DNA of 64,000 nt, taken from assembly GCF_030409835.1 (NCBI RefSeq), contig NZ_JAUFQO010000001.1, positions 248,001 to 312,000 of the forward strand. Reading direction: 5' to 3'. The position numbers were made by a program, and so were the translations under genes. Source of the stretch: Lutimonas halocynthiae (GTDB taxonomy: Bacteria > Bacteroidota > Bacteroidia > Flavobacteriales > Flavobacteriaceae). How positions within the stretch are numbered: position 1 is the first letter of the stretch; every line of letters starts with the position of its first letter. The notes beneath the pieces were generated by a model. It made no database searches. It was not told the DNA's origin and saw only the letters and a list, made by a program, of their open reading frames with translations. Positions 20,352-33,307 of this stretch are shown piece after piece.

Positions 20352-20425
20352 GGGGTTATAGCTCAGTTGGCTAGAGTGCTTGACTGGCAGTCAAGAGGTC
20401 CGGGGTTCGAATCCCCGTAGCTCCA
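20352..20425 (+). tRNA. tRNA-Ala (anticodon GGC)
   Basis: A full cloverleaf: acceptor GGGGTTA/TAGCTCC with the G3-U70 pair that identifies alanine tRNAs, D arm GCTC/GAGT, anticodon stem CTTGA/TCAAG with loop CTGGCAG (anticodon GGC at 34-36), T arm CGGGG/CCCCG with TTCGAAT. The discriminator is A; the CCA end is not encoded. Confidence 0.95.
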
Positions 20426-20666
20426 CAAGCTAAAAGAAAAGTCTTCGATAGAAGGCTTTTTTTTATTTCCAAGAATTTTGGCGAAGCAACGCTTCAAGTT
20501 AAAATTCTTGGAAATAAAAAAGGAGCTCCTGAAAGGGAGCTTTTTCTTTTTTGTTGTTAGGGGCACCCTTTTTGGGATCAACGCAGTTAATCCTTCTTAA
20601 ACCAGATAACCAATCACAATTAATAAAGCCACAAAACAGGCAAAGCAGCATTTTCTTTTAGCTTGT
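20425..20666 (+). repeat. Nested inverted-repeat region behind tRNA-Ala
   Basis: From the tRNA discriminator base, 16 nt (ACAAGCTAAAAGAAAA, 20425-20440) are exactly complementary to 20651-20666. Inside lie a terminator (20436-20462), a hairpin with 21-bp perfect arms (20459-20479 with 20501-20521, top helix GAAGC/GCTTC) and a second hairpin with a T tail (20516-20550). A similar nested layout follows tRNA-Val at 33144-33271, but with different sequences. Confidence 0.7.
20436..20462 (+). terminator. Terminator of tRNA-Ala transcript
   Basis: AAAGTCTTC, loop GATA, GAAGGCTTT followed by a run of T residues. Confidence 0.7.
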
Positions 20667-20914
20667 AAGGAGCCCCTATTAGGGATCAACGCAGTTAATC
20701 CGTCTTAAACCAAATATCCAATCAATTAATAAAGTCACAAAACAGGCAAAGCAGTATTTTCTTTTTTGTTGTTAAGAGCACCCTTTTTGGGATCAACGCA
20801 GTTAATCCACAAACCTTAAAACTTAAATTACGTGCTAAGATGTTAAATAGCTGCCCAGCAATTTGCAGATTTATTTGCAGAATGGGAGATCTTTGGGATC
20901 AACGCAATTAATCC
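20574..20914 (+). repeat. Tandem ~107-bp repeat headed by GGATCAACGCAGTTAATCC, four heads
   Basis: The 19-20 bp head begins at 20574, 20682, 20789 and 20895, spacings of 108, 107 and 106 bp. The first two full units are similar through most of their length (shared TTAAACCA, CAATTAATAAAG, CACAAAACAGGCAAAGCAG); the third keeps only the head and period. Each head is a small palindrome (GGAT ... ATCC with inner AA/TT). No ORF spans it. The rest of the 20426-21039 gap holds nothing else I recognise. Confidence 0.75.
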
Positions 20915-21039
20915 TTTCAAAAGAAAAATGAGTGCGTGATTAATCAATAATAGAAAAAATTATTTCACCCTCATTTTTTAAACCATCATACTTGATTCAC
21001 AATTTTTTTATGGGTAACTTAAACGTCTATTCATAGCAG

Positions 21040-21786
21040 ATGAATTCCAAAGAACAAATTTCTGAAAAAAAATGCCCTTCACCCAGTAAAGGAATTCTAT
21101 CCAATATAGTAAATTTCTTCATAAACAAACCAAAGTATGATACCTTCATCAAATTTGATTCATCAGAAGAGCGCTATCAATACAATAAAAGGATCATTCA
21201 AAGAATCGGGATTGATTCCAATCAGTACTCTGTTTTAAACATCAATAAAATTGGTATAGATGCCCCGGTCAACAACATCTTTAATGAATTAATCCTTTTT
21301 GACGGTAATCCGCGCTGTTGGCCAAATCATATTGCGAAGGTAGATCGAATTAATAATGATTTCAAAAACATACGAATACTTCCTTTTGGTTGGAAACGTT
21401 ATCCTTTCAAATCAATGAAAAGCTTCTTTGGCATTCCCTTAATTCCTTTGTTTCTTCTGAATGCAATTAGGGTAAAAGAAGTTCCTGATAGTTTTGACTT
21501 TGACAATGCCCGCTATGTACTCTATGAATGCTCTGGAGGTTATCCGATAGGATTTTTAGCCATCTATATACGATCCTCAATTCCAGAAATGGGTGAGACT
21601 TCCAAATCGCAATTAGTTTTTGGCGTAGGCTTCAATTTTTTTGGTCGAAAAGAATGGCAGGGTAAACGTAAGTTTGTGAGCGCCATCTGGGAATCGGTAC
21701 ACAACCGAGTTACTGCAAATGTCCTAAACCGAATAAAACGATTGAGCGAATGGCGACTTGAAAACATGCTTGAAAATCAAAATTAA
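21040..21786 (+). CDS. Hypothetical protein, 248 residues
   Basis: I do not recognise this protein. It has no signal peptide and no clear full membrane helix, although FFGIPLIPLFLLNAI (about 127-141) is hydrophobic. Features are several Trp/Arg-rich patches (NPRCWPNHIAKVDRI, WKRYPFKSM, FFGRKEWQGKRKF) and a basic C-terminal helix (IKRLSEWRLENMLENQN). Base composition and codon use look like those of neighbouring genes, so it is probably real. It stands alone between the repeat region behind tRNA-Ala and the cold-shock gene, with no operon partner. Downstream to 22013 there is no gene, only the promoter of the next. Confidence 0.65.
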   Translation: MNSKEQISEKKCPSPSKGILSNIVNFFINKPKYDTFIKFDSSEERYQYNKRIIQRIGIDSNQYSVLNINKIGIDAPVNNIFNELILFDGNPRCWPNHIAKVDRINNDFKNIRILPFGWKRYPFKSMKSFFGIPLIPLFLLNAIRVKEVPDSFDFDNARYVLYECSGGYPIGFLAIYIRSSIPEMGETSKSQLVFGVGFNFFGRKEWQGKRKFVSAIWESVHNRVTANVLNRIKRLSEWRLENMLENQN

Positions 21787-21936
21787 CCTCCTGAGAATAA
21801 TGTTTCAAAAACTAGTGGTCTTAAATCAGACTTCCGAAAACCAATTTATGCCGAAGAACAATTTTTAGACTTCTAAATTCCGCTTTATGCTTAAAATGAC
21901 AATGAAATGATTAAAATTTGAATGAAAACACAATTA

Positions 21937-21970
21937 TTTGAGGTATTTTCATTATAATTAGATAGCTTTG
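21937..21970 (+). promoter_or_regulatory. Promoter of the cold-shock gene
   Basis: TTTG (21937-21940), 22 nt, TAGCTTTG (21963-21970): both elements of the Bacteroidota housekeeping promoter. Expected start near 21976, 38 nt before the ATG. Confidence 0.6.
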
Positions 21971-22013
21971 AAAAATAATTACCATTTTTGGTAGAAACAT
22001 ATTAAATAAAAGA

Positions 22014-22481
22014 ATGGCAAAATCGCAGCAAACATTTAACAAGAGTGAAAAGGAGAAGAAACGTTTAAAAAAACGTGCCGACAAGAAAAAGAAAATGGAT
22101 GCTCGCAAGGCTGAAGCGAGAGAAAATGGAAAAAAGGGAATTGAATTTGCCTATGTTGATCATAATGGTCATTTGACCGATACGCCACCTGATCCTTCCA
22201 AAAAAATAAAGGTTGATGCAGGAAGCATAGAAATCAGTATTCCAAGAACTATGCCTGGAGATGAAGTAGAGATAGATCCTATTAGAAAAGGATCTGTATC
22301 ATTTTTTGATTCTTCCAAAGGTTTTGGTTTTATAATTGATGCTGAAAATTCTGAAAAATATTTCTGTCACGTAAGTGGTTTAATTGATGAAATTGTAGAA
22401 AATGATAAAGTTACTTTCGAACTTGAAAGAGGAATGAAAGGAATGAATGCTGTTAAGGTTACTTTGATAAAAGCTTCTTAA
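22014..22481 (+). CDS. Cold-shock domain protein with basic N-terminal extension
   Basis: Residues about 90-155 form a cold-shock domain with RNP1-like KGFGFI and RNP2-like YFCHVSGL motifs. The first 60 residues are an unusual lysine/arginine-rich helix (SEKEKKRLKKRADKKKKMDAR) followed by an acidic linker. The product should bind single-stranded RNA or DNA and act as an RNA chaperone. The Lys-rich tail form is frequent in Bacteroidota. It has its own promoter and terminator, so it is monocistronic. Confidence 0.88.
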   Translation: MAKSQQTFNKSEKEKKRLKKRADKKKKMDARKAEARENGKKGIEFAYVDHNGHLTDTPPDPSKKIKVDAGSIEISIPRTMPGDEVEIDPIRKGSVSFFDSSKGFGFIIDAENSEKYFCHVSGLIDEIVENDKVTFELERGMKGMNAVKVTLIKAS

Positions 22482-22502
22482 CAACCTGATTAAAAAAAAT
22501 AC

Positions 22503-22526
22503 AAAGCCGCTTTGCGGCTTTTTTTC
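22503..22526 (+). terminator. Terminator of the cold-shock gene
   Basis: AAAGCCGC, loop TTT, GCGGCTTT followed by five T residues. Confidence 0.9.
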
Positions 22527-22553
22527 TGCTCAATTGTTAAGAAAATCAAGCCC

Positions 22554-22561
22554 TATATTTG
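22554..22561 (+). promoter_or_regulatory. -7 promoter box of the bestrophin gene
   Basis: TATATTTG, with ATTG at 22533-22536 as a weak -33 element (17-nt spacer). Expected start near 22568. Confidence 0.45.
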
Positions 22562-22599
22562 TCTATCTAAGAGAATCTCATATTTTTAAATAAAAAAGA

Positions 22600-23649
22600 A
22601 TGTACAAACAGAGAAGATTTCCGTTTAAAAATGTTTTAATCTGGACAAAAAGAGAGCTAATTTTCTTTATCATAATGGCAACAGTCTTTACTATCTTATA
22701 CGAATTATTAGCAGTAAAATGGCTGCAGGTTCCTTTTACTCCTGTGGCACTTGTGGGTACTGCAGTTGCATTCATGATTGGTTTTCAGAACAATGCTGCT
22801 TATGATAGAATCTGGGAAGCAAGGAAAATTTGGGGAGGTATTGTCAATACATCAAGATCATTAATCATTACGGTAAAAGACAGCTTTTACATGCATCGGG
22901 TTGAATCAAATAAGGATGAATCTGAGGTTATAAAGATAATCACTAACAGACATATTGCCTGGTTAACAGCATTGCGTTATGCGATGAGGACCAAAAAGCC
23001 TTGGGAGGCTTCTTATGAGTCAATGCATAAGAAAGAAAAGTTCACTTATCAAGTTCCAGAACATGAGTCTCCTCTAGAAGATGAGATTAAGCCTTATTTA
23101 TCAAAAGTAGAATATGAAAAAGTCATGGCGGCGGCTAATAAACCTAATGCTATTATCAGTCTGCAATCAAAACATTTGAGGACATTAACCGATGAAAAAA
23201 AAATATGGGACTTCTCGCTTTTAAATTTGCAACAAATGCTACAAGAGTTAACTTCACTTCAAGGCAAGTCAGAACGAATCAAAAACTTTCCTTACCCTAA
23301 ACAATATGCCAGCATTGGCTACCACTTTGTACATATTTTTATGTGGTTGATTCCTATGGCCATTATTCCTGCTTTTTCCAGAATAGGTCTTGAAATAGCC
23401 GATGTAAATCCATTTGTTGGGACGTATTTTGTTTGGCTAAACATCCCTTTTACTGTAGTAGTTATTTGGGTATTTAATACCATGCTCCGAATTGGTTTGG
23501 CCGGAGAAAACCCCTTTGAAGGGTCTCCTAATGATGTGCCTATTTCTAATATTGCAAGAGGGATCACTAGAGATATATTACAGATCATTGATGAAGATCC
23601 AAAAGATATTCCGGAACCATTCACCAATACCAATTATATTGATATGTAG
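22600..23649 (+). CDS. Bestrophin family (UPF0187) chloride channel
   Basis: The 349-residue protein is a bacterial bestrophin: membrane helices near residues 24-45, 50-67, about 245-265 and 275-300, the FQNNAAYDRIWEARKIWGGIVN region and the C-terminal ENPFEGSPNDVPI segment typical of the family. These pentameric channels conduct anions, or cations in some bacterial members. It ends 44 bp from the convergent AraC gene. Confidence 0.9.
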   Translation: MYKQRRFPFKNVLIWTKRELIFFIIMATVFTILYELLAVKWLQVPFTPVALVGTAVAFMIGFQNNAAYDRIWEARKIWGGIVNTSRSLIITVKDSFYMHRVESNKDESEVIKIITNRHIAWLTALRYAMRTKKPWEASYESMHKKEKFTYQVPEHESPLEDEIKPYLSKVEYEKVMAAANKPNAIISLQSKHLRTLTDEKKIWDFSLLNLQQMLQELTSLQGKSERIKNFPYPKQYASIGYHFVHIFMWLIPMAIIPAFSRIGLEIADVNPFVGTYFVWLNIPFTVVVIWVFNTMLRIGLAGENPFEGSPNDVPISNIARGITRDILQIIDEDPKDIPEPFTNTNYIDM

Positions 23650-23693
23650 CGATTTTTCAATGGAATCGGCATTAATTTAATTCTTTAATCTTT

Positions 23694-24626
23694 TTAGCTA
23701 TGTGGCTTTCTTAAGGTTTCCGAAGGTAGTTCTCCAAAGAGCTTTTTATAATCTCGACTAAATTGCCCCATGTGCCAAAAGTTGTATTCACTGGAAATTT
23801 TAATAAGTGTACTCTTTTCCTTATCCATTTTCAGCATCTTTCTAACTTCATTTAACCGAAGTGCAGTTAAATATTTTTTTGGAGACATATCGTATTTTTT
23901 CCTGATCAATCTTCTAATAGTTCGTTCTGGAATATTTGTTCTTTCACAAATCTGATGTAAGGAGGTAACATTCGTAATATCACTATGTATATAATCTATA
24001 ACCTGAGAAAATCTGGAGAATGTAAGGTCATCATAAGGTTTTTCAGGCAATGTACAGACCAAACAATCAATTAAAAGGCTAACTAACTTGTTCTCAATTA
24101 ATTCTATCGCAACTTTTTCCGACAAATCTGTAACTTGAATTGCAAATAAAACCAATTGTCTCAACTCCTCTAGTTTAGACTCATCCACATGCAATAACTC
24201 TTCTTTCTTTAGTTTATCTATTAATTCTGAATGCCCTTTAATTTGACATAAGCTAGTAAAGAAGTTTTCTTCAACAGAAACTGGTATTCCGTTAAATCCT
24301 GATCCTGTAACGCTTTGGTGTTCATTGTTCCAAATGACACCGATCATTCCCTTTTTCATTTCATGCCTCTTCCAAGTAAAGGCTGTTTTTGGATCCCAAA
24401 TGGTAAAGGTTATAAATCCAGGAACACCCGTTCCTAACTGTAATACCTTTCTATTGATTTCAAAACTATTTAGCATTACATTGGGCGTTTTAACAATAGC
24501 TACCTTTCCATAAAAAGCTCCAGATTCTAAAATCTTCTCCTCTACTTGGGCCACAGTGAACATATCAGAAAATTCATCGTAATGATGCGATGAAAATTGT
24601 AGTCTCTGTATCGAATTATCCTTCAC
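23694..24626 (-). CDS. AraC-family regulator of the adjacent sulfatase (module 1)
   Basis: The C-terminal 100 residues are an AraC double HTH (SLHQICERTNIPERTIRRLIRKKYDMSPKKYLTALRLNEVRKML, then WHMGQFSRDYKKLFGELPSETL). The N-terminal part resembles the sensor domain of AraC proteins (YDEFSDMF, GFITFTI). The longest reading frame with ATG would begin at 24770, inside the divergent sulfatase gene and through its promoter, so I place the start at GTG 24626 (VKDNSIQRLQFSSH). This leaves 76 bp between the divergent start codons. It almost certainly regulates the sulfatase at 24703. The paralogue at 36102 has the same arrangement. The start is uncertain. Confidence 0.8.
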   Translation of the reverse strand: MKDNSIQRLQFSSHHYDEFSDMFTVAQVEEKILESGAFYGKVAIVKTPNVMLNSFEINRKVLQLGTGVPGFITFTIWDPKTAFTWKRHEMKKGMIGVIWNNEHQSVTGSGFNGIPVSVEENFFTSLCQIKGHSELIDKLKKEELLHVDESKLEELRQLVLFAIQVTDLSEKVAIELIENKLVSLLIDCLVCTLPEKPYDDLTFSRFSQVIDYIHSDITNVTSLHQICERTNIPERTIRRLIRKKYDMSPKKYLTALRLNEVRKMLKMDKEKSTLIKISSEYNFWHMGQFSRDYKKLFGELPSETLRKPHS

Positions 24627-24636
24627 TTGGCCGTTT

Positions 24637-24671
24637 TTTGATAGTCTATCGATGCTAAGGTAGTAATTTTG
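24637..24671 (+). promoter_or_regulatory. Promoter of sulfatase 1
   Basis: TTTG (24637-24640), 23 nt, TAATTTTG (24664-24671). Expected start near 24678, 25 nt before the ATG. It lies within the spacer shared with the AraC gene. Confidence 0.6.
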
Positions 24672-24702
24672 ACAGATTCTAAATAACACATAAAAATATA
24701 GT

Positions 24703-26367
24703 ATGAAAAACATAATTCTTTTAGTGGCAATTTTTTGTTTCACGACATCATTTATGAATGGGCAAAACAAGATTATTCACGATGCTGAATATTACGTTAT
24801 CGAAGCTCAAAACGGTGAAAGATGGGCGGCAGACGATAAAACTATCGATGCAAAACTAAAGGAGGTTCGAAAGAAAAATGGAAATCAAGCACCAAACATC
24901 ATCTATATCTTACTGGATGATATAGGTTTTGGCGAAATTGGAAAACCTGATTTAGATGTAATTAGAGGATATAGTACACCACGTATTAGTTCATTAGCAA
25001 AAGAAGGAATGAGTATCCAACGTATGTATACCGAGCCTTCTTGTACGCCAACCAGAGTCGCAATGATGACAGGGAGGCTTCCTACACGCACGGGTATTGT
25101 AGAAGCTAAGGTTGTTGTTTGCGGAGAAGGTTTACCTGCCGAAGAAGTGACAATTGCCGAGGTTCTTAGGGATGCTGGGTACAATACAGCTCATATTGGT
25201 AAATGGCATATGGGAGATATTGAACAGTGTTTTGCAAACAATCAGGGTTTCATGCATGCAGAATTCCCAATTCACCAACAAGCTCAATTGGCTTTAATGA
25301 ACAAAGATGCAGAATATGCAGGTATTGTTCAAGGTATTCAAACGGATAACCTGGCCCAGACTTTTACATTAGACAATGGATTTGTACCTGACCCAAGCGA
25401 CATGGTGACAGGAGTGGAATTAAGAGATGGGAAACTTTATGAAGTAGATTTAACTGCCGGTGAAAAATGGACACAGGATAAATACAGAAAAATGAACCAG
25501 CGGTATCAGGATCATGCCATAGAGCAGATTCAGATACTGTCTCAAAAGGACGAACCTTTCTTTTTAAATTACTGGCCACTATTCCCTGTGACTTTTACCT
25601 TGACTGATATTGAAGAATTTAAAACACTTAACGGTGGATCAATGGCAGAATCAATTGTTCAAATTGACGAATGGGTTGGAGATATTATTGATGAAGTAGA
25701 TAAATTAGGTATTGCCGAAAATACTGTGATTGTAGTGATGGGAGATAACGGACCCTTCATGCAATACTTGAGAAGTTCCGGACAATCAGACAGGATTTAC
25801 CGAGGAGGCAAGGGTGAGCACCTGGAAGGTGGCGTTAGAGCGGATGCCTATGTCAGATGGAAAGGAACCATTGAAGCGGGAAGTTCTGCTATGGACATTT
25901 TTCATGTGAGCGACTTATACACAACTTTCGCGCGTCTTGGGAATGCAACAGACTATATTCCACGAGATCGCATAGTAGATGGGATAGACCAAACGGCGGT
26001 TTTATTGCTAGGTGAAACCAATGGAAGAAGAGATTATATTTTTAATTACGAAGAATACAGCCTTAAATCTGTAGTGAAAAATAAGTTTAAAATGCATCTT
26101 CCTCCTCCAGGTACAAATGCTATCCTTACTTCTCAAATATTTGATCTCTACAGAGATCCTCGTGAATCAAGACCTGAAAGTACCATTTTACTGAGCCCAT
26201 GGGCAGGAGGTTCATTTGGTGGTATGATCGAACGTCATCTGAAAAATAAAAAGAAATATCCTGACAGACCGATGACCCATGCTGATCCTTACGAAGGAAT
26301 TGAAAACTTAAGACCTGAATCAAAAAAGCTTGTGGATACGTTTCATGGTGCAGGATCTCATGAATAG
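24703..26367 (+). CDS. Type I sulfatase (formylglycine-dependent), module 1
   Basis: The 554-residue protein has a Sec signal (residues 1-20) and an alkaline phosphatase-superfamily sulfatase fold. Cys114 in SCTPTR is the residue converted to formylglycine; Asp72-Asp73 (LLDDIG) bind Ca2+; GKWHMGD (Lys167, His169) and GDNGP complete the active site. It hydrolyses sulfate esters in the periplasm; maturation by an anSME enzyme, not encoded here, is required for a Cys-type site in Bacteroidota. A roughly 40-residue N-terminal block before the fold (IIHDAEYYVIEAQNGERWAADD) is shared only with the paralogue at 34307. The substrate-binding lipoprotein gene follows 24 bp later. Substrate unknown; no carbohydrate-uptake genes adjoin, so an aromatic or small sulfate ester is possible. 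Confidence 0.9.
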   Translation: MKNIILLVAIFCFTTSFMNGQNKIIHDAEYYVIEAQNGERWAADDKTIDAKLKEVRKKNGNQAPNIIYILLDDIGFGEIGKPDLDVIRGYSTPRISSLAKEGMSIQRMYTEPSCTPTRVAMMTGRLPTRTGIVEAKVVVCGEGLPAEEVTIAEVLRDAGYNTAHIGKWHMGDIEQCFANNQGFMHAEFPIHQQAQLALMNKDAEYAGIVQGIQTDNLAQTFTLDNGFVPDPSDMVTGVELRDGKLYEVDLTAGEKWTQDKYRKMNQRYQDHAIEQIQILSQKDEPFFLNYWPLFPVTFTLTDIEEFKTLNGGSMAESIVQIDEWVGDIIDEVDKLGIAENTVIVVMGDNGPFMQYLRSSGQSDRIYRGGKGEHLEGGVRADAYVRWKGTIEAGSSAMDIFHVSDLYTTFARLGNATDYIPRDRIVDGIDQTAVLLLGETNGRRDYIFNYEEYSLKSVVKNKFKMHLPPPGTNAILTSQIFDLYRDPRESRPESTILLSPWAGGSFGGMIERHLKNKKKYPDRPMTHADPYEGIENLRPESKKLVDTFHGAGSHE

Positions 26368-26391
26368 TGTTGAATTAAAAAATTAGAATTT

Positions 26392-27483
26392 ATGAAGAGT
26401 TTAATTTCTGCAACGCTAGCTATTTGTCTTACAGTCTTTATCATGGGTTGCAATGAATCACCTCCTGTAAAAGAAACCAATACTAAATTAGAACTTAAAC
26501 TAGCAGGTTACGATTATGACCGTGTTAGTGCTATAAGAGATGGAAAAGTATCTATAGAAGGTGCTGATGTCAACTTTGAGGTGAGCAATATTTATGCGAT
26601 GAACAAAACCACTTTTGGGCCAGAACAAAAATTTGAAGTAGTTGAAATCGGATTAATACCCTATATCTCGAGGTACATCAACGAAGGTTTTAGTGATTAT
26701 ACTTTAATCCCCGTATTTATTTCAAGGACTTTTCGTCATCGAAATATCTATGTACACGCAGATTCAGGTATTGAAACACCTGAAGATCTGAAAGGAAAAA
26801 GAATAGGGACACCTGGTTATGGAATGAGTGCAAATACTTGGATTAGAGGCATGCTTTTAGACGAGTATGGTGTAAAAGCAGATGATTTTCAATGGATCGA
26901 ATCTGATAAAAGCTCGGATGGAAAGGAGCTAAATTCTGGTTTTGCTAAGTATTACTTTGGCGAAGACTTCCCTTTAACAAAAGGCCCGGAAGGAGTTGAT
27001 GAATCTGAGTTATTACTCAGTGGTCAATGCGATGCTTTAATTACGGCCATAACTCCAAAAGCATATTTGGATGAAAACCCTAAGATCAGACAATTATTCC
27101 CAAAAGCCAGAGAAGTAGAGGCCGCCTATTTTAAGATGACGGGTATGTTTCCTATTATGCATGCAATAGCGATAAAGAAAACCGTTTTAGAGGAAAATCC
27201 TTGGCTGGCTAAAGCTGTGTTTGAGATGTATTCTGAGGCAAAAGATATTGCTTATAAGAATCTAGAATCTACCACAGTTGTAAGAACATCCTTACCTTGG
27301 GCTAAAGATGAGTTTGAAAGTACTGTTGAATTAATGGGTGATAATTACTGGAAATATGGAATCGAAGATAATCGTAAAGAACTTGAAGCCATCATGCGCT
27401 ATGTTTATGAGCAAGGTTTGGTAAAGCGTCAGATTCCATTTGAAGAGTTATTTGATACCTCTACTTTGTCTTTAAAAGAATAG
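26392..27483 (+). CDS. Substrate-binding lipoprotein of the 4,5-dihydroxyphthalate decarboxylase/NMT1-like family
   Basis: The 363-residue protein has a lipoprotein signal (IMGC, about residue 20) and a two-lobed fold of periplasmic binding type. Motifs match 4,5-dihydroxyphthalate decarboxylase-like proteins: LAGYDYDRVSAIRDGKV, IPVFISRTFRHRNIYVHADSGI, PEDLKGKRIGTPGYGMSANTWIRGML. The family is annotated both as a decarboxylase and as a binding protein; the lipid anchor argues for binding or a surface enzyme here. It follows the sulfatase by 24 bp and should be co-transcribed under the same AraC regulator, suggesting it handles the desulfated product. No ABC permease genes follow. Function is unproven. 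Confidence 0.8.
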   Translation: MKSLISATLAICLTVFIMGCNESPPVKETNTKLELKLAGYDYDRVSAIRDGKVSIEGADVNFEVSNIYAMNKTTFGPEQKFEVVEIGLIPYISRYINEGFSDYTLIPVFISRTFRHRNIYVHADSGIETPEDLKGKRIGTPGYGMSANTWIRGMLLDEYGVKADDFQWIESDKSSDGKELNSGFAKYYFGEDFPLTKGPEGVDESELLLSGQCDALITAITPKAYLDENPKIRQLFPKAREVEAAYFKMTGMFPIMHAIAIKKTVLEENPWLAKAVFEMYSEAKDIAYKNLESTTVVRTSLPWAKDEFESTVELMGDNYWKYGIEDNRKELEAIMRYVYEQGLVKRQIPFEELFDTSTLSLKE

Positions 27484-27525
27484 CGTTTGATTCCATTTGG
27501 ATAGACGATTCATTCTTTTGAAATT

Positions 27526-28269
27526 CTATAAATTAATTATTAAACGAATGATGCCAATATCGTCATGAGGAATAAAACCCTTATTGAGAAAGTCCTGATA
27601 TGTATTTTGTAAGAAACAATCTTCGAAACGCTCTGGTTTTCCAATTAGAAATATCGCTCTAGGATCAACAGCTGCATTTTTATGCTTAGTTCCTTTTTTC
27701 AGCTTGTCAATACCATCAGTAGAAATTGAAATGTCTCTTACTTCCTTAAAAGACCAGGTTTGAATCTCGTTGTCCTTGACATCTTCGAAACTATCCCCTA
27801 AATGATATCCCAAAAAATTTGGAATGTTGTTTTGATCTATTTCAGTTATTTCATTATTTACAGCAAAAAGACCATCCCCACTCATCTTAATACAAGCGAT
27901 GCGCTTCTTTTTATCAATGACCAACAGAACGATCGTTGCTAATAACTCTTCTCTTTCAAGAAAGAATAACTTTTTTGCTCTTTTTAAATCCTCGAAAAGT
28001 TGTTTAAAGAAGAACTCAGCGATTGCTTCTAAAGCCATTGTTTTCAAATCAAAATCCTCCATAATTGCCTTCAATTGAGGAAGCATTCTACTTGATTTAT
28101 GAAGAGATTTAGCATATAAAGCAGCTGTGAATTGACTATCTTTTGCCGAGGAGCACCCATCCATAACGGCACAAACCATAATGTCTTTCGTTAAGGATTG
28201 CGTGTACAAAAAATCCTCATTAAAGTTTTTATGGTGTATTCCTCTGTGAAGAAGGGTTGAAATTTTCAT
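27526..28269 (-). CDS. PP2C-family protein phosphatase
   Basis: The 247-residue protein has PP2C metal-site motifs, though in abbreviated form: NEDF near the start, CAVMDGCSSAKDS, SISTDGIDKL and HDDIGIIRL. It should remove phosphate from Ser/Thr in the cytoplasm. It is the last gene of a divergon of ECF sigma, sensor kinase and phosphatase, 85 bp downstream of the kinase, and is the obvious opponent of that kinase. It has no membrane segment. Confidence 0.85.
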   Translation of the reverse strand: MKISTLLHRGIHHKNFNEDFLYTQSLTKDIMVCAVMDGCSSAKDSQFTAALYAKSLHKSSRMLPQLKAIMEDFDLKTMALEAIAEFFFKQLFEDLKRAKKLFFLEREELLATIVLLVIDKKKRIACIKMSGDGLFAVNNEITEIDQNNIPNFLGYHLGDSFEDVKDNEIQTWSFKEVRDISISTDGIDKLKKGTKHKNAAVDPRAIFLIGKPERFEDCFLQNTYQDFLNKGFIPHDDIGIIRLIINL

Positions 28270-28354
28270 GTGAGTCTATTTACCTACTTTTATATAAAAG
28301 GGAATAAACAAGCTAAAATCCCTAATTGAGCCCCTATATTTATCAAGAGTATTC

Positions 28355-30697
28355 CTAAGAATAGGCATCGTATTCTTTCCACCACTTTAAAGCATCATGA
28401 CGATCCCAGGGGAATTCTTTATGTTTTATTTCAAAAAAATCAATTAATTGGTCAATATGAGCCGGTCTTTTTTGAGGATCAAATCGTATACATTCTGCTA
28501 AAAAATCTCTTAAATCAGCAGGTACATCTTTTCTTTCAATCAATTGGTTTCTAAATTCTCCATGTAGTGTTTCTTCACCTGACAACATTTTTTGAGACAC
28601 CAATTCCAATAAATACTGCCCACTAAATAAATACATCCCTAATGCACCAATAGAATAGATATCAACGCGCTGGTCTGCATTAAATGGATCACGAAGTCGT
28701 TCAGGAGCCATAAACATCGGCGTACCTCCTATCCTGTTTATCTGTGTTTGCTGTGAAATAGTAGCATCCACTTCCTTCACTAAACCAAAGTCGAGTAATT
28801 TAACCACATCAACAGCGCCTCCTTGATTACAGAGCATCACGTTCATTGGTTTTATATCCCGGTGCACCAAACCTTTTTCATGTGCCTCCTTTAACGACAG
28901 ACAAATGTGATATAGAATATAAACACCTCTCGCAACAGATATGTCATTTTTCGAATTGACTATTTTATCTAAAGAAACCCCGTTGAGGTATTCCATCACA
29001 TAGTAAAAGTCTTTCGTTTCTGTAATACCATAATCATAAACCTTGATGGTGTTTGGATGTGATAAAGAAGATGTGATCTTGACTTCCTTTTCAAAGCGGT
29101 CGAGCATATCAGTATTTACAAAATTGCTTTTTAATATTTTAATAGCCACCGGGTTTTTAAGGAAGGTGTGTTCAGCCTTATATACCTGACCAAATCCTCC
29201 TTCACCAATTTTTTCACGTAGTTTGTATTGTCCTAATATGCTAAAGTCTTCTACTTTTTTTCCTATTCTGGCAATTCGAACATTCGAATTAAATAGTAAA
29301 AAGGAAAGAACTAGAATAACAATAAAAAAGGATGCGAACGTATATTTAAAATAAACCAGAGAGGCCAGCGCCTCAGTATAATCTTCCTCAGTGATGACCC
29401 CAAAATTATATTCCGGAAGCCATACAGATGCCCCTATGACCTCTATTCCTCTATAATCACGGTAAGGAGTCATCAAATCTCCACTATAAGTCGTATCTCC
29501 TGTGGCCAACTTGTTCAAGGCCAAATCTACTATTCTTGTATAAGGCTGCTCCACACTCTTCGTTTCGGGGATACTGCCATCCATTACATCAAAACCAGGG
29601 TCCCTTAACTCAATATTATAAATAGTTTCTGCCAGCGTATCGTGTTTTAATAAGTATGTCTGACGCAACTCCTTTGTAAACCTGCTTGAAGAAAGCATTT
29701 TTCCTACATCATTAAAAGCATAAGTTTCACTCGTCGCACCATGTTTTGATAGCCTAAAGATATTTGAAAAGCTATATTTAGCTTGATAGGAACCAACTAG
29801 AATTGCAATGACTTGTTCATTCTTGTTAAAAATCGGACATAAAAAATTTACCCAAGCCTCTCTGTGAACATTTTCACCGTAAACATTAACAAAATTGTTG
29901 ACCAAATCATAATTGTTGACCGGCGGTATAAAAACGATTTCCCCATTTTTCGCTTTCAAATAATCCTTGTAAATTATTTCCCCAAGATCTTCATTCAATT
30001 GTGCTGTAATTCCAGTAGAATCGACCAGTGAATTTCCCAAAAGAATTTTTGGACTAGCATTACTCAGCATACTGATCAATCCATATTTCGTTCTTTTGCC
30101 TTCCTTTTGAAACCATTTGGTAGCTTCTCTGGCCACTTGAGAACTCCTAAGTAATTCATAAGTTTCATCTAAGTTTTCAAGACTATCAATAGCTATTGCA
30201 TAGTTGATTAGCTCCTCATTTAAGGCAATCGCCTGTATTTTATTTTTTTCGTTGATGATCCAGCGCTCAAAAATCTCTGTTGTAGTAGCTAGCAATGCTT
30301 TTTTTACTTCTCTCTCAGAATCTAAAATATTGTTACGGATATACATCCCAGAAATGAATCCCGCGCCAAGCAAAATACACAGAAATAATAGTACCAATAC
30401 AAGTCTATTGCGCTTATTCCCGAACAAAATTTTAGTCCAATTACTAACAACTTTTGATCGGAATACTGAGTCCTTTCTACCAACAAGTTTGGTCTTATCT
30501 TTAACTTTGTGAATCGAAGGAGCTACTTCCTTTGAATCTTCTTCTTGCATTTCATCATAAAGCGAGACGACTTCCTTTTTCAATAAGGCATCCTCAGCGC
30601 AAAACTGGTCAATTTTACGCAGGCCTTCCTCGTAAGGCAGGTCTATAACTTTCGCTAATATTTCTGAAACTTTTTGGTGGAAATCTTTATTATTCAT
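28355..30697 (-). CDS. Membrane Ser/Thr protein kinase with extracytoplasmic Cache-like sensor
   Basis: The 780-residue protein has a short cytoplasmic N-terminus, membrane helix 1 near 98-118, a periplasmic domain (about 121-445) resembling a dCache sensor, helix 2 near 446-470 and a Hanks kinase domain (about 491-755). Glycine loop GEGGFGQV, Lys520 in VAIK, HRDIKPMN with Asp614, DFG at 636-638 and APE at the activation loop all look intact. This topology is inverted with respect to PknB, which has its kinase N-terminal. Its start codon overlaps the stop of the ECF sigma gene (TAATG), implying coupled translation. Together they suggest signal sensing, phosphorylation and sigma control; substrate of the kinase is not known. 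Confidence 0.9.
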   Translation of the reverse strand: MNNKDFHQKVSEILAKVIDLPYEEGLRKIDQFCAEDALLKKEVVSLYDEMQEEDSKEVAPSIHKVKDKTKLVGRKDSVFRSKVVSNWTKILFGNKRNRLVLVLLFLCILLGAGFISGMYIRNNILDSEREVKKALLATTTEIFERWIINEKNKIQAIALNEELINYAIAIDSLENLDETYELLRSSQVAREATKWFQKEGKRTKYGLISMLSNASPKILLGNSLVDSTGITAQLNEDLGEIIYKDYLKAKNGEIVFIPPVNNYDLVNNFVNVYGENVHREAWVNFLCPIFNKNEQVIAILVGSYQAKYSFSNIFRLSKHGATSETYAFNDVGKMLSSSRFTKELRQTYLLKHDTLAETIYNIELRDPGFDVMDGSIPETKSVEQPYTRIVDLALNKLATGDTTYSGDLMTPYRDYRGIEVIGASVWLPEYNFGVITEEDYTEALASLVYFKYTFASFFIVILVLSFLLFNSNVRIARIGKKVEDFSILGQYKLREKIGEGGFGQVYKAEHTFLKNPVAIKILKSNFVNTDMLDRFEKEVKITSSLSHPNTIKVYDYGITETKDFYYVMEYLNGVSLDKIVNSKNDISVARGVYILYHICLSLKEAHEKGLVHRDIKPMNVMLCNQGGAVDVVKLLDFGLVKEVDATISQQTQINRIGGTPMFMAPERLRDPFNADQRVDIYSIGALGMYLFSGQYLLELVSQKMLSGEETLHGEFRNQLIERKDVPADLRDFLAECIRFDPQKRPAHIDQLIDFFEIKHKEFPWDRHDALKWWKEYDAYS

Positions 30698-31260
30698 TAA
30701 ATATCGCTCTTCATAAATTTTTTGAGCCAGGCCTTAGCCACTCTCCAATCAATCTCAATAGTCTTGATAGAAACTCCCAATTCATCAGCTATTTCTTGCA
30801 TTTTCATACCGCCAAAAAATTTTAATTCAACCACCTTAGCTTGTCTTTCATGGATTTCTTCTAGTTTTTCGAGTGCTTCATCTAATGACAAAATCACCTC
30901 ATCCTTTTCGACACTATAAGTCAATGCCTCTTCTAAATCGAGTTTCCTTTCACCTGACCCTCTTTTTTGCGCATTTTTATGCCTGGCATGATGCACCAAA
31001 ACACGTCTGATAGCCTGCGCACCAACCGCGTAAAAATGGGAACGACCTTTCCAGTCTATCTGATCCTGATCCACTAGACTCATATAGGCTTCATTTACTA
31101 ATATAGTGGGTTGTAAGGTATGTCCTGCTCTTTCTCTTCTGTATAACTTCTCGGCAATGTCATGAAGGTTGTCATACACTAATGGGTACAAATCAGCCGT
31201 TTTGTTCTTCGTGCCAATATTATTAAGTATTTGAGTGACTTCACTTTTTTTATTATCCAT
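30697..31260 (-). CDS. ECF-type RNA polymerase sigma factor (TIGR02999-like)
   Basis: The 187-residue protein has sigma region 2 (LYRRERAGHTLQPTILVNEAYMSLVDQDQIDWKGRSHFYAVGAQAIRRVLVHHA) and region 4 (LKFFGGMKMQEIADELGVSIKTIEIDWRVAKAWL). It resembles the ECF group encoded with Ser/Thr kinases in Planctomycetes and others, which typically lack a classical anti-sigma factor. The gene ends within the start of the kinase gene. No anti-sigma gene is present, so control by phosphorylation from its partner is a reasonable inference. A TATATTTG -7 box on the minus strand (31307-31300) may drive it. Confidence 0.85.
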   Translation of the reverse strand: MDNKKSEVTQILNNIGTKNKTADLYPLVYDNLHDIAEKLYRRERAGHTLQPTILVNEAYMSLVDQDQIDWKGRSHFYAVGAQAIRRVLVHHARHKNAQKRGSGERKLDLEEALTYSVEKDEVILSLDEALEKLEEIHERQAKVVELKFFGGMKMQEIADELGVSIKTIEIDWRVAKAWLKKFMKSDI

Positions 31261-31299
31261 ATATCAATCTATTCAACCAAATTTCAATTTTAAAGGTAA

Positions 31300-31307
31300 C
31301 AAATATA
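31300..31307 (-). promoter_or_regulatory. -7 promoter box for the ECF sigma/kinase/PP2C operon
   Basis: Minus strand reads TATATTTG; expected start near 31293, about 33 nt before the ATG. No -33 TTTG is obvious. Confidence 0.4.
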
Positions 31308-31353
31308 GCCTAATTCGACTTTACTCTACATATGAATTCTCATTTCCGAAATT

Positions 31354-31380
31354 ATTAACAGCACTTAAAGTGCTGTTAAT
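31354..31380. promoter_or_regulatory. 27-bp perfect palindrome in the sigma/31505 spacer
   Basis: Arms ATTAACAGCACTT and its exact complement flank a single central base. It lies about 60-85 bp upstream of the likely sigma operon start and 125 bp before the gene at 31505. There is no T run, so an operator for a dimeric regulator is more likely than a terminator. Confidence 0.55.
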
Positions 31381-31504
31381 CTATAAGTTGAAAATTCTAT
31401 TTAAACAAACATCTTCTCCAATTAGGGTTTATGAGTACTCTTTGCCCTGTTACTTATGAGAGACATAAAAACTCAAACAAATTATACATAATAAAATAGA
31501 AAAC

Positions 31505-32338
31505 ATGAAAACAAGAAATCAAATTTTAACAGTACTTATGGCGGTCATCATTAGTTTTTCTGCCTTAGCAAACAACATTGTCGTTATTGAAAAGAATGGA
31601 CAAGAATCAACATTAGAGATAGAAAAAAATGACATTCGTGGCAAGGGTATTAAATCAGGAAATGAAGCGATGCTTTATTTTGAAAATATCAAAGAAGTGA
31701 GCACAAATAGTTTTGATGTATATGAAAAGCTGGTCACCAAAACTCAAAAAAACTATAATCACTTAAAAGTGGAATTTACTGGAGACGGAAACCTTCATGC
31801 ACTTCAACTAGAAAAATTGAGAAAGAAAAGAACCGGAGCTGATGTGACAAGAGCCGCTGGAGGTGTAATGACCATTTTAGGAGTTCTTTCAGGAGATAGA
31901 GGTCTTACTGCGGCTGGACTAGCAACAAATGCAGCCGGTAGAATTGCGAGAGATCTTAATGACGACAAAACATCTAATACCCAAACAGCCATGCTAAACG
32001 AATTGGACGAAAGAACCAAAGCTGCAGAGGCTAAAAATGAGGAAGTTGAATTAAAGAAGGCCTATGGAGATGAAAATATTGAAGGTTTAAAAGCATTAAT
32101 AGACAAGAACTATGACAGAGCTTTAGCTTTGGCCAATGTGGGAGAAACTTCAGATGTAGAAGATCATAAGATTGCAGCGGTGTACTTAAAAGCGATGATT
32201 GCAGCTGATCAAAACAATGAAGAACAAGAAGAAATCGAATATAACAGAATGGCTGAAATTGACTCAGAAATTAATGATGCGAATGAGGCTAAAAACGAAA
32301 TCGCTGGTTTAATGGAAGAAATGGCAGCATTAAGATAA
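31505..32338 (+). CDS. Secreted protein with glycine-rich segment and helical C-terminus, unknown function
   Basis: The 277-residue protein has a Sec signal (residues 1-22, cut after ALA), a short beta region (about 23-75), a Gly/Ala-rich hydrophobic stretch (about 119-150, AAGGVMTILGVLSGDRGLTAAGLATNAAGRI) that could insert in a membrane, and an acidic helical tail (about 160-277). I do not recognise a family. It is divergent from the ECF sigma operon and could be one of its targets or partners. It has its own terminator. Confidence 0.7.
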   Translation: MKTRNQILTVLMAVIISFSALANNIVVIEKNGQESTLEIEKNDIRGKGIKSGNEAMLYFENIKEVSTNSFDVYEKLVTKTQKNYNHLKVEFTGDGNLHALQLEKLRKKRTGADVTRAAGGVMTILGVLSGDRGLTAAGLATNAAGRIARDLNDDKTSNTQTAMLNELDERTKAAEAKNEEVELKKAYGDENIEGLKALIDKNYDRALALANVGETSDVEDHKIAAVYLKAMIAADQNNEEQEEIEYNRMAEIDSEINDANEAKNEIAGLMEEMAALR

Positions 32339-32370
32339 ATAGTAGCAAAGTAAACTCAATATAAAATTAA

Positions 32371-32401
32371 AAACCGAAGAGAATCTCTTCGGTTTTTTTA
32401 T
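32371..32401. terminator. Bidirectional terminator between 31505 and 32457 genes
   Basis: AAACCGAAGA, loop GAA-type centre, TCTTCGGTTT then T residues on the plus strand. Convergent genes on both sides can use it. Confidence 0.85.
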
Positions 32402-32456
32402 TTGTAAATCAGGTCATTTCGTAAAAGAAAAAACTCTTTTCGAAAGAAAAGCTTTT

Positions 32457-32834
32457 TTACATTCCAGCCATTTTCATCACCTTATTCAGCATTTCTGGAT
32501 TGTTCGCGATATAATCAACAGCTGCCGTTGTTAAGGCGCTATCTCCTAAAACAGATTTAATGATTCCATCCAAAGAATCCTTATTATCTGTAATGATTTT
32601 TGATATTGCATTTGTAGTTTCTGGGTTCTCTTTCAAGTAGTCTACAGTCTCCTTTTGTAATCCTTCATCCTTCGACAAAGCATCTGTAATTTGCTTTTCT
32701 AATTCAGGATTTTGATCAGCAGCAGCCTCCATGCCAACTTTTTTAACATCATCTGTGCTCACTGAAGGCATCGTTTGTGCCGAAATAGAAGCAGAAAAAG
32801 CCATAACAAATACTAATAGTAATAAACGTTTCAT
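32457..32834 (-). CDS. Small secreted helical protein, unknown function
   Basis: From the ATG at 32834 the product is 125 residues with a Sec signal (MKRLLLLVFVMAFSASISAQ), followed by four or five short helices with repeated DYLKENPETTNAISKII and DYIANNPEMLNKVMKM units about 45 residues apart. The upstream ATG at 32876 would add a non-signal stretch and is unlikely. It should be exported. It has no recognised family and lies between the 31505 gene and tRNA-Val. Confidence 0.7.
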   Translation of the reverse strand: MKRLLLLVFVMAFSASISAQTMPSVSTDDVKKVGMEAAADQNPELEKQITDALSKDEGLQKETVDYLKENPETTNAISKIITDNKDSLDGIIKSVLGDSALTTAAVDYIANNPEMLNKVMKMAGM

Positions 32835-33065
32835 AATTTTAAATTTAGGGGTTAAGCGAACAAAAATAAGAGTCAAAACCGTTTAAAAACTGAAGTTTTA
32901 CTTTCCAATTCATTATTTACATCAAATTTCTTCAATGCTAATCTTTTTTGCCATTTTTAATTTCGAATAGCATCATCCTCTTTATTCTAAAAAACTCCAA
33001 ACTAGATTCTAAATGTCAATTAGATTTTATAAAAAATTTGTAGTTTTGACAACTCTAATTTAAAG

Positions 33066-33140
33066 GGGTCATTAACTCAGTTGGTTCAGAGTGTTACCTT
33101 GACAGGGTAGAAGTCACTGGTTCGAATCCAGTATGACCCA
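33066..33140 (+). tRNA. tRNA-Val (anticodon GAC)
   Basis: Cloverleaf with acceptor GGGTCAT/ATGACCC, D arm ACTC/GAGT, anticodon stem TTACC/GGTAG, loop TTGACAG giving anticodon GAC, T arm ACTGG/CCAGT with TTCGAAT. Discriminator is A; the following bases are CATC, so CCA is not encoded. Confidence 0.93.
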
Positions 33141-33143
33141 CAT

Positions 33144-33271
33144 CAAATAGAATCCCGGTGCCGTAGGCACTGGGATTTTTATTTTCACGCCGCTGAAAGT
33201 TCACTTTCAAAAGGCTTTGAAAATAAAAAATCCCCTATCCTGGCAAAGCCAGGATATAGGGATTCTATTTG
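33144..33271 (+). repeat. Nested inverted-repeat region behind tRNA-Val
   Basis: CAAATAGAATCCC (33144-33156) is exactly complementary to 33259-33271. Inside are a terminator (33151-33186), a stem with arms ATTTTCA/TGAAAAT and flanking T/A runs, and a hairpin TATCCTGGC/GCCAGGATA with AATCCC/GGGATT outer pairs. The architecture matches that behind tRNA-Ala, with other sequences. Confidence 0.65.
33151..33186 (+). terminator. Terminator of tRNA-Val transcript
   Basis: AATCCC-G-GTGCC, loop GTA, GGCAC-T-GGGATT, then TTTATTTT. Confidence 0.75.
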
Positions 33272-33275
33272 CAGA

Positions 33276-33307
33276 AGCGGTTCTCATCTGGATCACGCCA
33301 GTAATCC
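33276..33307 (+). repeat. Conserved GGATCACGCCAGTAATCC element behind tRNA-Val
   Basis: GCGGTTCTCATCTGGATC followed by ACGCCAGTAATCC. It has the same palindromic core as the heads at 20574-20914 (GGAT ... ATCC), with inner AC/GT instead of AA/TT, a compensatory pair change. A third, weaker relative lies at 41561-41608. Confidence 0.65.

Follow-up and report, generated by a model that had tools for sequence, protein, structure and literature searches.

Probable small insertions in tRNA genes of Lutimonas halocynthiae and other Bacteroidia end in a likeness of the target's T-arm

Layout of the two tRNA loci

The DNA considered here, called the window throughout, is a stretch of 64,000 nucleotides (nt) from Lutimonas halocynthiae (contig NZ_JAUFQO010000001.1, positions 248,001 to 312,000), in which the transfer RNA (tRNA) genes tRNA-Ala(GGC) and tRNA-Val(GAC) are each followed by a short non-coding element made of nested inverted repeats and closed by a small palindrome that resembles a tRNA T-arm (the T-arm mimic). 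The first-pass annotation of this DNA had reported a shared layout behind the two genes, and our analysis recovered all of its parts at both loci: the nested inverted repeat, a terminator-like hairpin, a central stem, a second hairpin and the palindrome. The exact complement reported for the tRNA-Val trailer exists (13/13), as does that for tRNA-Ala (16/16), but the latter lies in the second unit of a tandem array, the corresponding arm of unit 1 being 81% complementary. The features, with the means by which they were recognized, are as follows.

20352..20426, + strand: tRNA-Ala(GGC), target gene (confirmed tRNA)
20425..20440, + strand: Ala outer arm A, the tRNA trailer (inverted-repeat search)
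20441..20464, + strand: Ala terminator-like hairpin 1 with T-run (sequence and fold)
20459..20521, + strand: Ala central stem and inner hairpin (arms 20459-20479 and 20501-20521, 21/21 paired)
20522..20545, + strand: Ala hairpin 2, terminator-like on the opposite strand (sequence and fold)
20542..20557, + strand: Ala outer arm A' of unit 1 (81% complementary to arm A)
20575..20593, + strand: Ala T-arm mimic palindrome 1, right end of the element (pattern and covariance model)
20594..20701, + strand: Ala tandem unit 2, left-truncated (exact arm A' at 20651-20666, palindrome at 20683-20701)
20702..20808, + strand: Ala tandem unit 3 (palindrome at 20790-20808)
20809..20914, + strand: Ala tandem unit 4, more diverged (palindrome at 20896-20914, one change)
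33066..33141, + strand: tRNA-Val(GAC), target gene (confirmed tRNA)
33144..33156, + strand: Val outer arm A (inverted-repeat search)
33172..33234, + strand: Val central stem with inner hairpin TGAAAGTTCACTTTCA (arms 33172-33185 and 33221-33234)
33259..33271, + strand: Val outer arm A' (13/13 complementary to arm A)
33290..33307, + strand: Val T-arm mimic palindrome (the preceding CT is complementary to the AG after AATCC in tRNA-Val)

At both loci 148 nt separate the tRNA end from the first palindrome, and at tRNA-Ala the right part of the element is tandemly repeated, with four palindromes that follow one another at 108, 107 and 106 bases. Compared with shuffled sequences, the Ala region folded with a z of -7.2 (DNA parameters) and the Val region with a z of -9.3 (RNA parameters). 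tRNA was the sole Rfam family above the gathering score in the window, and in the 12 loci scanned tRNA alone rose above the cut-off. A tRNA-linked RNA element, one of the identities first proposed, therefore loses its place as the primary reading, because duplicated tRNA ends at sister loci (below) point instead to an insertion of DNA. The alternative proposal of something akin to a miniature inverted-repeat transposable element (MITE) comes close to the evidence, which shows elements that are non-coding, integrated and defined at the right end. The observation itself proved much larger than stated, extending to the four tandem Ala copies, an outer arm specific to the tRNA and, at sister loci, displaced tRNA ends; its interpretation is borne out in part.

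The elements measure about 85-190 bp, the window pair representing the long form. Across the 77 tRNA loci that we collected as a sister-locus set (single loci are cited by our own L numbers), the distance from tRNA to palindrome is 126-150 nt in 64, 81-82 nt in four (the short form) and outlying in nine. In 29 of the 68 long-form loci, a run of 10 nt or more in the trailer has its exact complement in the sequence ahead of the palindrome; when halves were swapped between different tRNAs, such runs appeared in 0.5%. An alignment of tRNA-Ala loci from seven genomes contained 18 pairs, out of 57 predicted, with both sides changed in at least one sequence. The compensatory AA/TT to AC/GT change noticed between the window palindromes is real and belongs to a wider variation of the inner pair among 40 distinct palindromes, the first inner pair being CG in 20, AT in nine, TA in six, GC in four and TG in one (counted in the unfiltered set, since the filter of our alignment A1 demanded this pair and is biased there). 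Selection on structure, as first suggested, is favored by this covariation in palindrome and arms, but conversion between the inverted arms could sustain them and yield part of the pattern. One locus (L265) retains just the trailer, terminator and mimic, 52 nt in all, so the inverted-repeat body can be dispensed with.

The T-arm mimic and the displaced tRNA 3' ends

The two bases outside the constant GGAT/ATCC of the palindrome match the T-stem of the particular tRNA in front of it. Before GGAT stands mostly CA behind tRNAs reading AATCC-TG, CT behind those with -AG, TT behind -AA, TA behind -TA, AA behind -TT, GA behind -TC and G behind -C. The first outer base fits in 71 of the 77 loci (shuffled mean 28.0, maximum 44 in 10,000) and the second in 51 (mean 26.7, maximum 42); the third fits in 10 (mean 10.3), and after deduplication to 62 loci the three fits are 56, 38 and 9. 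The transfer-messenger RNA (tmRNA) of the genus, with the T-arm GAGTCCC, is accompanied by palindromes that start with GGGACC, some with GGGCCC, and at L341, where the tmRNA has a different T-stem, the mimic reads GGGAG-ATCA-CC-GAA-GG-TAAT-CTC. Since the outer bases fit the T-stem of their own tRNA, the element ends in its target's T-stem, and it is well supported that the palindrome is this T-stem, a conserved ATCA...TAAT core standing in the place of the T-loop. The loop of the mimic is 3 to 11 nt long and of the G..A type in 32 of the 40 distinct palindromes, never T..C; G..A hairpin loops are known for their stability, and together with the covarying inner stem they suggest that one strand is read as a hairpin. 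The G..A loops favor the tRNA strand for this folding, whereas the computed energy favors the other (-4.1 vs -2.5 kcal/mol).

The signature of insertion comes from the sister loci. Allowing an offset of 1-2 bases, 12 of the 77 loci have another copy of their tRNA's 3' end that continues straight on from the palindrome's TAATCC; a stricter count of displaced ends after the first palindrome gives 10, the doubtful L241 among them. Exact copies of 17 nt, from AATCC to the C after the discriminator, occur at L208 (Pro), L247 (Arg), L258 and L263 (both Ser), and near-exact ones at L219, L225, L265 and L270, as well as at L299 after its second palindrome. More displaced ends lie outside the set of 77 or after later palindromes (L146, L147, L203, L221, L232, L286, L299, L337). 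In the L. halocynthiae genome itself, the tRNA-Arg(ACG) end AATCCAGTCGAGGTCAC is repeated 17/17 at L040. The copy is preceded by a short-form unit with a variant palindrome as its right end and followed by a long-form element; at L337 the order is inverted, the long form coming first, then the tRNA end and the short form. Element and tRNA end alternate in stacks (L263, L257/L286, L147), and downstream array units are often left-truncated, as in the tRNA-Ala array of the window. A T-run that would fit the original terminator starts 31-36 nt after the displaced end in 9 of 14 loci checked (elsewhere at 24 nt in L263, 15 in L203, 0 in L208 and 54 in L063, with none in L228), although in L040, L147 and L263 the next feature is another element and not the original terminator.

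The displaced ends suggest that the elements inserted into tRNA or tmRNA genes, each restoring the tRNA 3' end. Their integrative nature is well supported, and we consider it probable that they form a family of short non-coding integrative elements that enter the T-arm or 3' half of tRNA genes, end in the mimic, stack upon one another and are moved by an enzyme. By analogy with the displaced copies elsewhere, the 3' end of tRNA-Ala in the window, from AATCC on, would be the element's own copy. A divergent tRNA-Ala 3' end at L059 was considered as proof of 3'-end replacement and dropped, because its own 5' half largely fits it.

Distribution and comparison with known systems

Within the 4-Mb genome, the Ala palindrome with up to three mismatches had 12 matches (0 for the reversed control), and the pattern GGATCA-N4..18-TAATCC had 24 (1 for the reversed control). 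Seventeen of the 24 lie 3' of a tRNA gene (Ala, Val twice, Pro three times, Arg twice), one lies 3' of a displaced tRNA-Arg end (C12:302281) and six elsewhere. The first-pass annotation had asked whether other tRNA genes lack the layout and whether the palindrome is equally common near random genes: most tRNA genes are indeed without it, 8 of the 36 found carrying it within 700 nt on the tRNA strand, yet 18 of the 24 matches are tRNA-linked, so that it is not as common near random genes. A ninth flank, that of a tRNA-Ser, merely reaches the array of an adjacent tRNA-Pro. The palindrome accompanies 8 of 17 tRNAs containing AATCC and 0 of 19 others, an association that is partly built in because the search pattern itself ends in AATCC; two tRNAs without AATCC show apparent variant mimics (L029, L033).

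A covariance model of spacer and palindrome (R1), which contains no tRNA information, matched 21 of 22 genus genomes at E <= 0.5, 79 of 149 family genomes at E <= 0.05 and, with stricter filters and E <= 0.001, 39 of 295 genomes from the class. Among the best loci that were followed up, 28 from the family and 29 from the class, an intact tRNA or tmRNA gene lies upstream on the same strand within 1 kb in 20 and 20, respectively (40/57), and none of the 57 has such a gene on the opposite strand only. Five of the eight remaining family loci stand behind a tRNA or tmRNA 3'-end remnant (L212, L214, L218, L221, L223), the others being a tRNA with a variant palindrome (L226), a contig edge (L227) and a coding-like match (L222). 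The nine remaining class loci comprise three with tRNA-end-like remnants (L274, L275, L282), the ambiguous L283 and five that appear unrelated (L269, L272, L276, L278, L279). Carriage by phages was considered and set aside: GGATCAACGNAGTTAATCC had two matches in viral contigs, one in a host flank behind a tRNA-Ser end (L248) and one apparently due to chance, and the four matches of a longer pattern were chance-like except L253, a viral contig in which a tRNA-Arg-like end comes after the palindrome, at the edge of the contig.

In the genus, tRNA-Ala could be compared behind the same upstream gene, which in the window encodes a universal stress protein, directly upstream of the tRNA and 84% identical to its Lutimonas saemankumensis counterpart. 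The element or a decayed form is present at nine loci (that of this genome, L055, L056, L057, L059, L063, L064, L098, L107), absent at four (L060, L065, L109, L110), and two loci were cut too short to be read (L061, L062).

tRNA genes are favorite insertion sites of bacterial mobile DNA, and the way in which a cell survives such an insertion is usually explained by integrase islands, which insert in the tRNA gene, restore its 3' end, leave a displaced copy at the far end and stack. The elements described here appear to do the same; unlike the islands, their small form is geneless and tiny, their right end is a T-arm mimic, and no integrase was seen at the tmRNA cluster. Integron cassettes carry at one end an attC hairpin conserved in structure and variable in sequence, and they form arrays; a structure-conserved end hairpin, arrays and occasional cargo recur here, but the target is a tRNA T-arm. 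Repetitive extragenic palindromes and bacterial interspersed mosaic elements (REP/BIME) are tandem palindromes associated with the transposase RAYT; ours are likewise tandem, yet they are tRNA-linked, and this genome has no RAYT. SegB is a nuclease of the GIY-YIG type, and as with free-standing nucleases of that type, small GIY-YIG open reading frames (ORFs) are found here at tRNA and tmRNA genes; unlike there, insertion replaces part of the tRNA gene and most copies are nuclease-free. The record of PMC13096335 provides phage SegB as an example of a free-standing homing nuclease near tRNA genes. With MITEs, exemplified by the Cardinium MITE in the record of PMC9769881, our elements share shortness, lack of coding capacity, palindromes and multiple copies, but they are tRNA-site-specific, their ends are dissimilar and they have no transposase-type inverted termini. 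A literature search at the level of listings found no description of such elements, which does not prove absence. They would represent a far smaller way of breaking a tRNA gene without killing the cell, present in many genera, and would account for a class of tRNA-adjacent repeats with a simple target rule of two T-stem bases. An element end that is a structural copy of its target also allows a folded DNA arm to be tested as the specifier of an insertion site.

Candidate enzymes and rival explanations

At the sister loci two copies of the tRNA 3' end bound the element, the left one completing the working tRNA and the right one following the palindrome. Most likely, a nuclease or recombinase would cut at the T-arm, and the T-arm mimic, together with the tRNA 3' end common to element and target, would direct the copying or joining of the element into the gene. 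A small homing-type GIY-YIG nuclease may serve in cis for larger versions and in trans for the small elements; it is our first choice among candidates, although its chance falls short of even. It is preferred because small GIY-YIG genes take up positions in tRNA genes much as the elements do and because one of them, encoding 81 amino acids (aa), lies at L341 with the tmRNA on one side and a T-arm mimic on the other. In these genomes such genes (about 80-130 aa) are found at tRNA and tmRNA genes: among 38 distinct ORFs, a part of the small hits, 20 had a tRNA or tmRNA gene within the stretch retrieved, in every case on the strand of the ORF, and 18 had none, eight of these belonging to an array among tRNA-Met halves. 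Some follow the 3' end of a tRNA (Asp, Met, Asn, His or Ser) or of tmRNA; others, in several cases with repeated 5' halves, stand before the 5' end of tRNA-Arg, Pro, Met or Asn. At L286 the GIY-YIG gene is in a tRNA-Ser array whose unit shares the left end of our elements and ends in another hairpin, and at L337 two copies precede a tRNA-Arg that has small elements behind it. The window elements contain no GIY-YIG gene.

The GIY-YIG loci have features of their own. Genes at L337, L339, L342 and L347 run into the tRNA 5' end, a mirror-image type of insertion, and at L337 and L339 tandem copies are separated by repeated tRNA 5' parts. Eight small GIY-YIG genes stand in tandem at L331 (G345:C34:5500-11500); where the units were read in detail, tRNA-Met 3' halves lie between them, and these have a small, GC-rich palindrome behind the anticodon. 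At L345, L340 (this genome, C12:279000-283500) and L333, GIY-YIG genes stand beside displaced tRNA halves or copies whose arms contain small palindromes, e.g., CCTGCCTGCCGGCAGGCAGG, as though made unfoldable or uncuttable. No viral-contig relative was confirmed for two of the GIY-YIG proteins.

Several observations weigh against the reading of inserted elements moved by an enzyme. None of the five window palindromes is followed by a tRNA end, and in 65 of the 77 loci, both window loci included, a displaced end is missing behind the first palindrome whether or not the offset is allowed; the window copies would have lost theirs. No empty and filled versions of the same site were aligned base for base. 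Persistence at tRNA-Ala across much of the genus fits a host function or old insertions as readily as mobility. The genome has a single small GIY-YIG gene, beside tRNA-Arg(TCG) and of the 5'-half type, and among the GIY-YIG loci L301-L350 a mimic-like hairpin stands at the GIY-YIG gene itself in L341 only, the scan otherwise giving an array behind a neighboring tRNA-Arg (L305/L342) and two weak opposite-strand matches.

A wider, tentative possibility, which we hold to be somewhat doubtful, is a system spread over the class Bacteroidia, with entry into tRNA and tmRNA genes through target-specific mimics, repair of the tRNA by a 3' end brought along, cassette-like arrays, occasional cargo such as a restriction system or metabolic genes, and movement by small GIY-YIG nucleases or a folded-DNA recombinase. 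By analogy, it might be a tRNA-based counterpart of homing elements and integrons combined.

The strongest rival, though an unlikely one, holds that the elements are satellites of tRNA islands consisting of attachment (att) sites alone, excised and integrated in trans by the tyrosine integrases of islands at the same tRNA, the palindrome being the integrase core site. Such islands typically carry the tRNA 3' end as a direct repeat, and integrase genes do occur at the same tRNAs (C12:281650 beside tRNA-Arg(TCG); G011:C1:581677 near L232). The genome has six matches to the tyrosine recombinase family PF00589, one of them in an island that has an element-bearing tRNA remnant on its far side; the small elements have no room for an integrase gene of their own. 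Three apparent island right ends, however, lack the mimic: one keeps a near-normal T-arm, GGTTTGAATCC, and GGTGTGAATCC (L212) and TTGGGATCC (L232) are likewise without it. Tyrosine recombinases need a fixed overlap, whereas the mimic loop varies as noted above, and no PF00589 gene is present at the tmRNA cluster of this genome (C1:549-566 kb), in a search that did not extend to serine recombinases.

We regard as improbable a recombination of folded DNA as in integrons, in which a Xer-like recombinase would join a single-stranded, attC-like hairpin of the palindrome at its base to the hairpin-forming T-arm of the tRNA. A conserved shape with variable sequence, a constant mismatch, the covarying inner stem and the variable loop agree with it; the hairpin and the junction position would suit an attC-type cassette with putative recombination at the base of the hairpin. 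Apparent cargo between hairpins also agrees. In the tmRNA cluster of this genome (C1:549-556 kb), a 5.7-kb segment encoding two DUF1254/DUF1214 proteins, a carbonic anhydrase and an AraC regulator is flanked by two palindromes, and a tmRNA-like 3' end follows each of them, with the intact tmRNA 10 kb away; at L299 (G112:C1:341500-352000), a type I restriction system (by Pfam HsdM, HsdS, an extra AAA protein and HsdR) lies between two mimic groups at tRNA-Pro. The conflicting indications of the folding strand count against it.

A comparably low probability attaches to a structured trailer or bidirectional tRNA terminator that serves the host, is selected and does not presently move. The strong folds at Ala and Val, the two-sided changes in the tRNA-Ala alignment, the near-constant length (126-150 nt in 64 of the 77 loci) and the element's persistence at tRNA-Ala in 9 of the 13 genus loci that could be read agree with such a trailer, but it leaves the displaced tRNA ends and stacked arrays aside, the four genus loci without the element speak against it, L265 keeps terminator and mimic without the body, and arm conversion may imitate covariation. 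REP/RAYT-type palindromes moved by a Y1 transposase share the small size and tandem arrays and are very improbable, the genome having no match to Y1_Tnp (PF01797), for which relatives were not searched.

Three further stretches of this genome adjoin elements or displaced ends. Directly behind the tRNA-Ala array, a 248-aa protein without a Pfam match is encoded at window positions 21040-21786. On contig C12 (280599-302300), a 21-kb island with the tyrosine integrase at C12:281650 occupies tRNA-Arg(TCG), and on its far side the displaced tRNA end, 21 kb away, is followed by an element of the T-arm-mimic family. At L254 (C1:557001-577000), about 10 kb without a PF00589 match separate the intact tmRNA from a displaced tmRNA end, and this stretch encodes, by eye, several membrane proteins and a response regulator/sensor pair.

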